NCBI GenBank assembly: GCA_017473345.1
Contig: JAFULL010000122.1
Location: 1-40,718, forward strand
Direction of reading: 5' to 3'
From: Clostridia bacterium
GTDB taxonomy: Bacteria > Bacillota > Clostridia > Christensenellales > Aristaeellaceae
DNA length: 40,718 nt
Part shown: positions 23,669 through 25,887 of the stretch, piece after piece
How the letters are laid out: every line of letters starts with the position of its first letter
Position numbering within the stretch: the first letter of the stretch is position 1
Notes under the pieces: generated by a model
Seen by the model: the letters and a program-made list of their open reading frames with translations, nothing else
The model's database searches: none
Told to the model about the DNA's origin: nothing
Program-made: the position numbers and the translations under genes

Positions 23669-23701
23669 AAAAGCAGCATGTGCTTGCGCCACGCTGCTTT
23701 T
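23669..23701 (-). terminator. Terminator after the barstar gene
   Basis: A 9-bp stem (23669-23677 with 23693-23701) followed on the minus strand by TTTTTGTTTT, about 10 bases past the barstar stop. Confidence 0.8.
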
Positions 23702-23711
23702 GAAATGAGGA

Positions 23712-23990
23712 TCAGGCCACCTCGCGGTAGCTGATCTCCAGATGATAGTTTTCACAGGCTGCTTCCTGAAATACGCGTAGCAGGCGGGGCATATAGTCCG
23801 CCATTCTGCCGCGGGGCTGGGACGGATAGCATACGGTGATGCGCAGCGCATCGGTTTCGCTGGTCAGCTCGTCATGCAGGGCGTCGAGATTGGCGCCGTA
23901 ATAGAAGGGAAAGTTCAGCGCTTCCTTCAGGTAGCTGTGCAGCGAGATCTTTTCTTCAAAGGGAGTCAGGTCGAGTACAATATCTCTCAT
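23712..23990 (-). CDS. Barstar-family ribonuclease inhibitor
   Basis: A 92-residue cytosolic inhibitor that would block barnase by plugging its active site. The core FPFYYGANLDALHDELT matches barstar LPEYYGENLDALWDCLT. Equivalents of the barnase-contacting residues are Tyr30 (barstar Y29), Asp36 (D35), Asp40 (D39), Glu76 (E76) and Glu80 (E80); Trp38 of barstar is His39 here. The C-terminal LLRVFQEAACEN helix aligns with VLQVFREAKAEG. Start ATG 23990 follows AGGAGG; the frame extends 16 codons further into the end of the barnase gene without support. It begins 16 bases after the barnase gene ends, so inhibitor and enzyme should be co-transcribed. Confidence 0.92.
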   Translation of the reverse strand: MRDIVLDLTPFEEKISLHSYLKEALNFPFYYGANLDALHDELTSETDALRITVCYPSQPRGRMADYMPRLLRVFQEAACENYHLEISYREVA

Positions 23991-24006
23991 GGGGAAACCT
24001 CCTGAA

Positions 24007-24864
24007 TCAGTACAGCTGGACAAAGGTCTTGAAAGCATCAGGCGTGTAATAGATCAGCCCGTCGCTGGAATAAACGATGCGCTCGTCGCTGCGCTTGCCG
24101 TCGGTGGTGTTGACGTCACACTCGTACCAGGTGCGGCCCTTGGCGGAGGGCAGCTGCTTTTCGCGGTTCTGGAATTCATCGCCGCCGATGGAACAGCCGG
24201 GCATGACTTCGGCCAGATTATCCTTCTTGGCAGTCCACCCCAGTTCCTTGGCCTCGGCCTTGGTGATATAGTTGCAGGGAAGGGCGCCAAACCTCACCAG
24301 ATACGCAGCCACTTCGCCGATGGAGCTGTACTCGCCGTACTCGTCCAGCTTGATGTTCAGGTCAACAGTAATGGCAGGCTCTGCAGCCTTGGGGGGTTCG
24401 ATGGTCACCTTGATCTGAGTGAAGGTTTCGTAGTGATTGCCAGTGTAGTAGATAAGACCGTCGTTGGAAAAAACAATACGCTTGCTGCCGCGGTAGCCAC
24501 CGTCGAAGTCGATGTCGCACTCCGTCCACTTGCGTCCTTTTTTGTCAGGCAGCGTGCCTTCGTAGTTGCCGAAGCGATCGCCGCCAATGGAGAAACCGGG
24601 AGCAACTTTATGCAAATTGCCCTGCTTGTTGTTCCAGCCAAGATCGCTGGCTTCGTTTTTGGTCAGAAAGTTGTCGGGCAGCCGCTCGTACAGCGCCAGA
24701 TAAACGGCAACTTCTTCCATGCTGTCATACCAGCCGCTTTCCTCCACCGGGTAGTCGGCGGAAGACAGCTTGATAACTTTGGCTGCAAGCGCAGAACTGA
24801 TGGAAAACAGCATCATCAGCGCCATCACAAGCGCAAGCAGTTTGCGTAAAACAGGATGCTTCAT
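24007..24864 (-). CDS. Secreted tandem-domain barnase-family ribonuclease
   Basis: A 285-residue exported protein with a Sec signal peptide (cleavage near SISSALA-A, about residue 27) and two full barnase-like domains, about 50-152 and 183-285, joined by a short linker. Using barnase numbering, domain 1 has Lys27=K69, Asp54=D96, Glu73=E115, Arg83=R125, Arg87=R129, His102=H144 and Tyr103=Y145, but Arg59 is Y101. Domain 2 has K202, D229, Arg59=R234, E248, R258 and R262, but His102 is Ala277 and Tyr103 is Phe278. Barnase cleaves RNA after guanosine using Glu73 and His102; domain 1 should be active and domain 2 inactive. A barstar gene follows directly. AAGGAGG precedes ATG 24864; the PHP gene ends 18 bases upstream. 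Confidence 0.93.
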   Translation of the reverse strand: MKHPVLRKLLALVMALMMLFSISSALAAKVIKLSSADYPVEESGWYDSMEEVAVYLALYERLPDNFLTKNEASDLGWNNKQGNLHKVAPGFSIGGDRFGNYEGTLPDKKGRKWTECDIDFDGGYRGSKRIVFSNDGLIYYTGNHYETFTQIKVTIEPPKAAEPAITVDLNIKLDEYGEYSSIGEVAAYLVRFGALPCNYITKAEAKELGWTAKKDNLAEVMPGCSIGGDEFQNREKQLPSAKGRTWYECDVNTTDGKRSDERIVYSSDGLIYYTPDAFKTFVQLY

Positions 24865-24882: not shown

Positions 24883-25764
24883 TTACAGGATAATGGGATT
24901 GCTCCAGGCGCTGCGGCCCTGCGTATCCATGATTTGAATGCGCACATGTGTTTCATGTTGGTTGGCGTTGCGGGTGAGGTCATAGGATGCATGGGTCAGC
25001 TCTTCGCCGGTGACACAGCGGCTAAAGGCCCATACGGCATTGCTGTAAAAAATGACACGGGAGACGGGGGAACAGCTGACTTCGATTTTGCCGTCCTGTA
25101 CGCTGATCTGCTCAAAAGCAGGGCCCTGCGAGCAGTAGAAACGGCCAGAGTCAAAAGCTTTCAGCAGGCTTTCAGGAGTGAGTTCGTCTGCCTGCACCAT
25201 GGTAAAGCTGCGGCCAGCTTCGCCGTTGTACCAGTGCGAGTCGTCAGAAGCGACAAAGTTGAAGAACGTACCATGCGCAGCAGCAACGTCCAGAATGCTG
25301 GAAGAATCCGCTCGGTCGCCGTTCCAGGGGTAGGTGGAGGCGCTGTTGTAGATCTCGGCAGCAGTGACGTCATAGAGGCCGCTCAGTGTGGCAAGGGTGT
25401 TCAGCGACCATGCGGGATGCGCAATGATCACGCGTCCACCATGGGCGCGGCAGCGGTCGATGCATTCCTGAAACATGCGCGGATAGTCGGAAAAGTCTAC
25501 ATTTTCATCCATGCCGAAGCACACCAGATGAACGACTTCGCCGGGCAGGGAATAGTCCGCCTCCATGCCGCGCAGCACCAGCATGCCATCCTCCATGTGC
25601 GTATTTTCAGATACGACACGGTGATCCGTCAAAGCCAGAAAATCATAACCGCGTTCGCGGTAAAACTGCTTTACCTGCTCAGGCGTGAGCTTGCCGTCGC
25701 TCAGCGTGGTATGGCAGTGAAGGTTGCCTTTGAAAAATGGTTTGTTTGCATCAAACAGGTTCAT
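24883..25764 (-). CDS. PHP-domain metallohydrolase (CehA/McbA-like)
   Basis: A 293-residue protein of the polymerase-and-histidinol-phosphatase superfamily, tri-metal phosphoesterases or hydrolases. Metal ligands are visible in NLHCHTTLSDG (His16, His18, Asp23), LALTDHRV, MEADYS, IIAHPAW and VASDDSHWYNG. The C-terminal 70 residues form a beta-rich appendix (SRVIFYSN, VRIQIMDTQGRSAWSNPIIL), as in CehA/McbA-like hydrolases. The substrate is unknown. ATG 25764 is chosen because AGGGAG lies 9 bases upstream; the frame extends 22 codons further across the promoter -10. It precedes the tandem barnase gene by 18 bases with no terminator between, so the two may share a transcript. Confidence 0.88.
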   Translation of the reverse strand: MNLFDANKPFFKGNLHCHTTLSDGKLTPEQVKQFYRERGYDFLALTDHRVVSENTHMEDGMLVLRGMEADYSLPGEVVHLVCFGMDENVDFSDYPRMFQECIDRCRAHGGRVIIAHPAWSLNTLATLSGLYDVTAAEIYNSASTYPWNGDRADSSSILDVAAAHGTFFNFVASDDSHWYNGEAGRSFTMVQADELTPESLLKAFDSGRFYCSQGPAFEQISVQDGKIEVSCSPVSRVIFYSNAVWAFSRCVTGEELTHASYDLTRNANQHETHVRIQIMDTQGRSAWSNPIIL

Positions 25765-25798
25765 TGCGCAATCTCCCTTCTGAAAAAGATGCACAAGC

Positions 25799-25827
25799 AT
25801 TATAGACCCTTCCCAAAATAAATGCAA
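25799..25827 (-). promoter_or_regulatory. Probable promoter for the PHP-barnase-barstar unit
   Basis: On the minus strand TTGCAT (25822-25827), a 17-base spacer and a perfect TATAAT (25799-25804), 35 bases before ATG 25764. A 10-bp palindrome CAAACGTTTG lies upstream at 25845-25854 and could be an operator. Confidence 0.6.
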
Positions 25828-25887
25828 CAAAAATACAATCTATACAAACGTTTGCTCATGATGAAAAATTGCGTTTTACAAGAGAAA

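Follow-up and report, generated by a model that had tools for sequence, protein, structure and literature searches.

A natural tandem barnase joins an intact RNase domain to one lacking the catalytic histidine

The tandem barnase and its adjoining barstar gene

Barnase, its inhibitor barstar, and the H102A mutant of barnase are textbook material: few protein pairs have been measured as well as barnase and barstar, and the standard dead mutant is H102A. A natural fusion of a live barnase domain to a dead one is encoded in the stretch of DNA analyzed here (the window), the 40,718 nucleotides of contig JAFULL010000122.1 from a Clostridia bacterium of the Aristaeellaceae (GenBank assembly GCA_017473345.1). 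The gene (24007..24864, minus strand) specifies 285 amino acids that comprise a signal-like segment, a live domain, a linker, and a dead domain, and each of the two domains matches PF00545, as the initial annotation had described. Domain 1 (24409..24738, minus strand; 73.3 bits) passes the curated PF00545 cut-off, has the barnase fold, and carries K69, Y101 (barnase position 59), E115, R125, R129, H144, and Y145. All of these except Y101 had been listed as catalytic residues and are present as listed; the catalytic set K27, E73, R83, R87, H102, and Y103 (barnase numbering) is complete, and judged from these residues, domain 1 is catalytically live. Domain 2 (24010..24339, minus strand) likewise matches PF00545 with a barnase fold and keeps K202, E248, R258, and R262, together with R234 at position 59. 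However, A277 replaces His102, as first annotated, and F278 replaces Tyr103. Without the general acid His102, domain 2 does not qualify as a competent barnase, and because this residue is lost, it is predicted not to cut RNA; the H102A control of an engineered barnase switch is reported to give no significant RNA hydrolysis (PMC10018487).

The two domains are separated by a linker of 13 residues (PF00545 profile bounds), and the protein begins with a signal-like segment of about residues 1 to 29 (24778..24864, minus strand), in which a basic start is followed by a hydrophobic 14-mer. Behind that segment, Pfam finds PF00545 only; polymorphic toxins are recognized by an N-terminal delivery module (RHS, WXG, etc.) ahead of the toxin part. 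No NCBIfam model matches the tandem barnase. A gene for a barstar of 92 amino acids (23712..23990, minus strand; PF01337, 1.2e-13, 51.2 bits against a cut-off of 23.4) starts 16 bases past the barnase stop codon, and its product carries the acidic helix NLDALxD in the alignment. Among the PHROGs, none matches the toxin, and the barstar has one weak match of unknown function; the PADLOC defense models match neither protein, although absence from that library excludes nothing. The window protein is probably an exported guanyl-type RNase. The tandem barnase of the initial annotation thus stands, but that annotation had overlooked the adjoining barstar and the fact that the two domains differ at position 59 (Tyr versus Arg).

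Each tandem pairs one intact domain with one dead domain

We compiled 125 distinct barnase open reading frames (33 tandem and 92 single), with identical cores removed and first domains shorter than 90 amino acids (e.g., L095) excluded. The sample is nonrandom, drawing on best-match loci, a dead-domain profile scan (47 loci), and 20 regions picked for long frames or two matches. The profile search for two-domain barnases and inspection of position 102, which had been proposed as a check, revealed the same pattern throughout: every tandem (33/33) consists of one intact domain and one dead domain. K27, Y59, E60, E73, R83, R87, H102, and Y103 are each present in 33/33 live domains, and His102 is found in 92/92 single barnases. 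In the dead domains, His102 is found in 0/33, its place being taken by Gly (11), Asn (7), Lys (7), Ala (4), Gln, Glu, or Arg (1 each), or a gap (1). A sequencing or assembly error at Ala277 is ruled out, because none of the 33 tandem proteins has His there. The natural live-plus-dead pairing is real, and it represents a conserved architecture of 33 proteins in five genera.

The remaining positions of the dead domain follow two opposite courses. Y103 is kept in 9/33, E73 in 28/33 (Gln in 5), and K27 in 19/33 (Leu in 8 and Arg in 6, leaving Lys or Arg in 25/33), while R83, R87, N58, and Arg or Lys59 are each retained in 33/33 and E60 and F56 each in 32/33. Because the losses fall on the former residues and on H102, the cutting residues of the dead domains are eroded and the binding residues are kept. 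In the 92 singles, all with the catalytic His intact, position 59 is Tyr in 65 and Arg or Lys in 23. Asp40 is present in 31/33 dead domains but in 0/33 live domains and 1/92 singles, and it is common to both types of tandem, which differ in domain order (type A, live-dead; type B, dead-live). Type A dead domains further carry Lys or Arg at positions 38, 39, 82, and 104 (in 25, 26, 25, and 21 of 28, respectively), while type B lacks K38 and K82.

The dead domain has likely been retained for the sake of its former active-site cleft, which would still bind an acidic ligand but no longer cut it. One possible ligand, which we hold somewhat doubtful, is guanine-containing RNA, in which case the dead domain would tether substrate for the live domain in the manner of a cellulase carbohydrate-binding module. 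The pattern of eroded cutting residues (H102, Y103, E73, and K27, the last being Leu or Arg in 14) and kept binding residues (F56, N58, E60, R83, and R87) fits this possibility, as do the basic residues that type A has gained around the cleft at positions 38, 39, 82, and 104. The mean charge of 15 cleft positions is also higher in the dead domain than in the live domain (+4.8 versus +1.4; higher in 29/33 proteins, equal in 2, and lower in 2), but this set was chosen partly after the consensus was known. Outside the cleft set, the mean charge is −12.8 in the dead domain and −4.7 in the live domain, and the dead domain is acidic overall (−7.9). The seven classical active-site positions average +2.15 in dead domains, +1.0 in live domains, and +2.0 in Arg59-type singles, which indicates that the dead domain does not exceed an ordinary Arg59 barnase in positive charge there. 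RNA binding also sits poorly with position 59, where Arg is missing from most working singles and yet Arg or Lys occurs in all dead domains; with the absence of K38 and K82 from type B; and with the barstar gene that adjoins all 33 tandems, for which it offers no reason.

Taxonomic distribution of the tandem barnases

PF00545 is present in 231 of the 308 genomes of the family, and the tandems come from at least 33 of these genomes in five genera (g1, g9, g33, g35, and g47). The genus of the window has PF00545 in 14/17 genomes, 11 of which show two matches in one open frame, and barstar in 17/17. All named tandem loci belong to metagenome-assembled genomes of Clostridia or Eubacteriales, and a ruminant gut sample is named for 6 of the 18 (L054, L057, L061, L066, L077, and L087). 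When 396 genomes of the order were sampled, the matches listed placed two full matches in one frame solely in the genus of the window (5 genomes); these listed matches omit the tandem-bearing genomes of the other four genera. In a sample of 398 genomes of the phylum, 19 of which have PF00545, a full tandem was found only in the window's genome.

A phage or mobile origin was also considered and is not supported. No relative was confirmed among viral contigs (14 pattern matches), and none was found in phage records. Five records of a plasmid collection match, all below 60% identity; four of them, with two joined pieces, span about 320 to 360 bases, the length of one domain, and the best match has no annotated feature at the matched site.

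Domain order, ancestry, and selection

The live domain precedes the dead domain in 28 tandems (type A), while the order is reversed in 5 (type B, genus g33), and the linkers range from 5 to 40 residues (profile bounds). This variability bears on two alternative readings of the dead domain. By analogy with binase, the tandem could be a hard-wired asymmetric dimer in which the fused dead copy shields the live domain from an inhibitor or a protease. In crystals, binase forms dimers in which one active site is blocked, and dimerization of RNases has been linked to inhibitor evasion (PMC4281067); binase and balifase also needed more barstar than barnase did, which is credited to dimers (PMC8837141). 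However, both sites of the binase dimer are thought to work in solution (PMC4281067), the linker lengths and the two domain orders speak against a hard-wired arrangement, the structure model of the tandem gives the domains no fixed orientation (predicted template modeling score, 0.51), and the conservation of cleft residues would go unexplained. We consider such a dimer improbable. A ligand-free helper of secretion or folding appears more improbable still. H102A barnase has been used as an export-enhancing fusion partner (PMC4742420), and a signal-like N terminus (a hydrophobic stretch behind a basic start) is present in 33/33 tandems, but the dead domain lies C-terminal to the live one in 28/33, and its cleft residues should drift if there were no ligand.

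We constructed a phylogenetic tree from 114 of 159 rows, comprising the 66 tandem domains, the 23 Arg59-type singles, a random 24 of the 69 other singles, and barnase, with positions 27, 59, 73, 102, and 103 removed from the alignment. In this tree, the bootstrap of which had not settled, the 28 type A dead domains form one group (support, 99/98) and the 5 type B dead domains form another (support, 100/100). Forcing all 33 dead domains together was not rejected (4.2 log units better; p 0.62), and forcing all 33 live domains together was rejected (73.5 units worse; p 6e-5). In the simplest reading, which the tests allow rather than prove, a single dead lineage appears to have been fused to two distinct live lineages, with the domain order reversed between them. 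Four single barnases group among the type A live domains, which suggests that the dead domain was lost in some species; a stand-alone dead domain was found in none of the 92 singles. A recent internal duplication is not supported, as the domains of the window protein are 49% identical to each other (37 to 54% across the 33 tandems) and fall in separate groups of the tree.

Dead domains evolve faster than live domains (median distance, 0.71 versus 0.48). Their median ratio of nonsynonymous to synonymous substitution rates (dN/dS) is 0.35, against 0.25 for live domains, with single pairs of up to 0.74 (173 of 528 pairs usable, nonindependent). These rates, and the replacement of His102 by seven different residues or a gap, are what might be seen in a functionless, decaying duplicate. 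In the closest pairs, however, the dN/dS of the dead domain is 0.06 (L007/L009), 0.10 (L103/L104), 0.09 (L160/L161), 0.17 (three pairs of L077, L080, and L087), and 0.02 (L155/L157), and the domain is under purifying selection in these pairs. Its presence in five genera, with R83, R87, and Arg or Lys59 kept in 33/33, also speaks against decay, which we regard as highly improbable. The open frames themselves are no evidence in this respect, because the tandems were collected as open frames.

Association with barstar

A barstar gene adjoins the tandem downstream in 33/33 cases, compared to 71 of the 91 singles with enough downstream sequence (Fisher p 0.0017, kinship uncorrected), and one barstar domain, not two, is seen per tandem locus. 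The 33/33 pattern of live and dead domains, the kept residues, the clade tests, the purifying selection, and this adjoining barstar together make the dead domain look like an old, selected, ligand-binding pseudo-RNase.

Three of the 17 genomes of the window's genus (G001, G015, and G016) contain an orphan barstar that adjoins the gene for a PHP metallohydrolase described below (L176, L177, and L178). The NLDALHD helix of these orphans is intact, and no PF00545 match was found in the three genomes even at an E value of 10, the assemblies being given as 93 to 95% complete. Orphan barstars in siblings that lack the RNase would be expected if barstar also gave protection against the enzyme of a neighbor, and an arms race is conceivable.

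Barstar as a candidate ligand of the dead domain

Our preferred but tentative choice of ligand for the dead cleft is barstar. The dead domain would give each RNase an additional, harmless place for barstar to dock and would occupy one inhibitor molecule there, so that silencing of the live domain would take more barstar in any cell that the RNase enters; entry into other cells is an assumption. The dead domain retains Arg59, Arg83, Arg87, and mostly Lys or Arg27, the cationic set that holds barstar, while its live partner has Tyr59. In barnase, Lys27, Arg59, Arg83, and Arg87 make electrostatic contacts with Asp35, Asp39, and Glu76 of barstar (PMC8837141), and simulations are reported to show Arg59-Asp35 as the most persistent contact (PMC11408511). 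The enzyme itself seems able to do without Arg59, because 65 of the 92 His102-intact singles have Tyr there. Nor does the loss of His102 abolish barstar capture, since H102A barnase fusions have been purified on immobilized barstar (PMC4742420).

Several observations weigh against barstar as the ligand. The residues of the cationic set serve RNA too, and N58, E60, and F56 of the guanine site are likewise kept. The Arg at position 59 may be nothing more than an ancestral state, and 8/33 dead domains have Leu in place of K27. We know of no barstar partner for the extra Lys of type A at positions 38, 39, 82, and 104, which suit nucleic acid better. Kinship alone could account for the association with barstar, and a sink that binds one inhibitor per RNase would be overwhelmed if barstar were in excess. 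Enzymes with Tyr59 can have a barstar as well: 50 of 68 Tyr59-type singles adjoin one, as do 21 of 23 Arg59-type singles (p 0.09). Barstar position 76 does not track Arg59 or Tyr59 in the alignment, inspected by eye, and across all 33 tandems, the partial correlation with barstar distances is 0.41 for the dead domain and 0.49 for the live domain. Finally, His102 is itself a main contact of barstar, and H102A is reported to raise koff by about four orders (PMC11408511).

For type A, the corresponding partial correlations are 0.40 (dead) and 0.35 (live); covariation by distance matrices is not discriminating, as it does not single out the dead domain. Among the roles that the initial annotation had offered for the dead domain, inhibitor capture and substrate binding both stay candidates, while nothing favors cell-surface binding.

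Taken further, the barstar reading would describe a toxin whose own catalytic domain is present in a second, dead version that soaks up the immunity protein. The dead lineage could even be a transferable anti-immunity module, because it appears joined to two live lineages in opposite orders. We rate this extension as unlikely. If it were true, barstar spent on the harmless domain would raise the dose of immunity that a rival needs.

Relation to known systems

Bacillus barnase and binase, guanyl-specific RNases of PF00545, are single-domain enzymes, to which the window protein adds a noncatalytic domain, and Bacillus barnase has Arg59 where the live domain of the tandem has Tyr. The laboratory mutants barnase H102A (PDB 2c4b) and binase H101N (PDB 2rbi) have lost the same position as the dead domains, which carry the residues of these mutants in 4/33 (Ala) and 7/33 (Asn) cases. 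Unlike the mutants, the dead domains are natural, are fused to a live domain, and show erosion at further catalytic residues. In simple barnase-barstar gene pairs, for which an incipient toxin-immunity gene order has been described (PMC3482391), barstar likewise follows the RNase gene immediately, but the tandem RNase has two domains, one of them dead, and orphan barstars occur in siblings. The natural dimer of binase (PMC4281067) also brings two barnase folds together, with one site blocked in crystals; its subunits are noncovalently associated and identical, with the catalytic residues intact in each, in contrast to those of the tandem. The initial annotation knew of no described barnase with two domains, one of them dead, and among the matches listed from our search of the open-license literature, none names a tandem barnase or a natural barnase without His102; one of them (PMC10920889) contains the words "inactive barnase."

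Evolution has made an H102A-type mutant and kept it beside a working copy in five genera, with a barstar gene adjoining. The system draws its interest from how regular this pattern is, from the dead lineage having apparently been used again with a second live partner, and from how easily it can be tested on a well-measured pair. The contacts of the barnase-barstar pair are known so well that a few routine binding assays could decide between an inhibitor-holding and a substrate-holding domain. Should barstar prove to be the ligand, the dead domain would be a natural decoy against immunity, derived from the toxin's own fold.

Neighboring genes and related arrangements

Upstream of the tandem barnase lies a gene for a CehA/McbA-type PHP metallohydrolase (24883..25830, minus strand; NF038032, 97.6 bits against a cut-off of 80), with 18 bases between its end and the start codon of the barnase. 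In the stretches examined, this gene is upstream in 9/33 tandem loci and 3 orphan-barstar loci and was not found in the others. A terminator-like hairpin follows the barstar gene (23673..23692, minus strand; consensus scan only). Other nearby genes of the window are housekeeping-like and include SpoIIE and a MutY-like protein, with GroEL and GroES judged by eye. A 286-codon open frame (23989 to 24849, plus strand) runs antisense to almost the whole tandem barnase gene and is probably a by-product of codon use.

Other barnases of the sample occur in different arrangements. Single barnases of genus g32 (L048, L050, and L053) lie behind a peptidoglycan-binding-like stretch (PF01471, 1.6e-15 in L048; the others by eye), another way to add a binding module to this RNase. 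Two single barnases of genus g41 (L115:1392-2381 and L163:745-1794) have an N-terminal region of about 200 residues, which has no Pfam match in L115. In L091 (Paenibacillus pasadenensis), two barnase frames are consecutive, and the frame of an intervening barstar match overlaps the open frame of the second barnase.

Barstar, too, occurs in unusual settings. At three dead-live loci (L077:6735-7448, L080:996-1709, and L087:6753-7451), it shares a frame with acyltransferase-like hexapeptide repeats, identified by Pfam in L077 and by eye in the other two. It shares a frame with a pyridoxamine-phosphate-oxidase-like domain in L069:6240-7019 and, in L071:4988-7990, with a GH3 glycosidase in an open frame that runs to the contig end and may be a natural fusion or a chance frame. 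The barstar of L068:2186-2476 has Glu for Asp39, and in the dead domain at this locus, position 102 is a gap and position 59 is Lys. Lastly, L085:5186-5500 and L090:5089-5526 encode an additional barstar, located upstream, next to a barnase of the Bacillus type; this barstar lacks the usual YYGxNLD motif and is possibly a dead inhibitor, the mirror image of the dead barnase.
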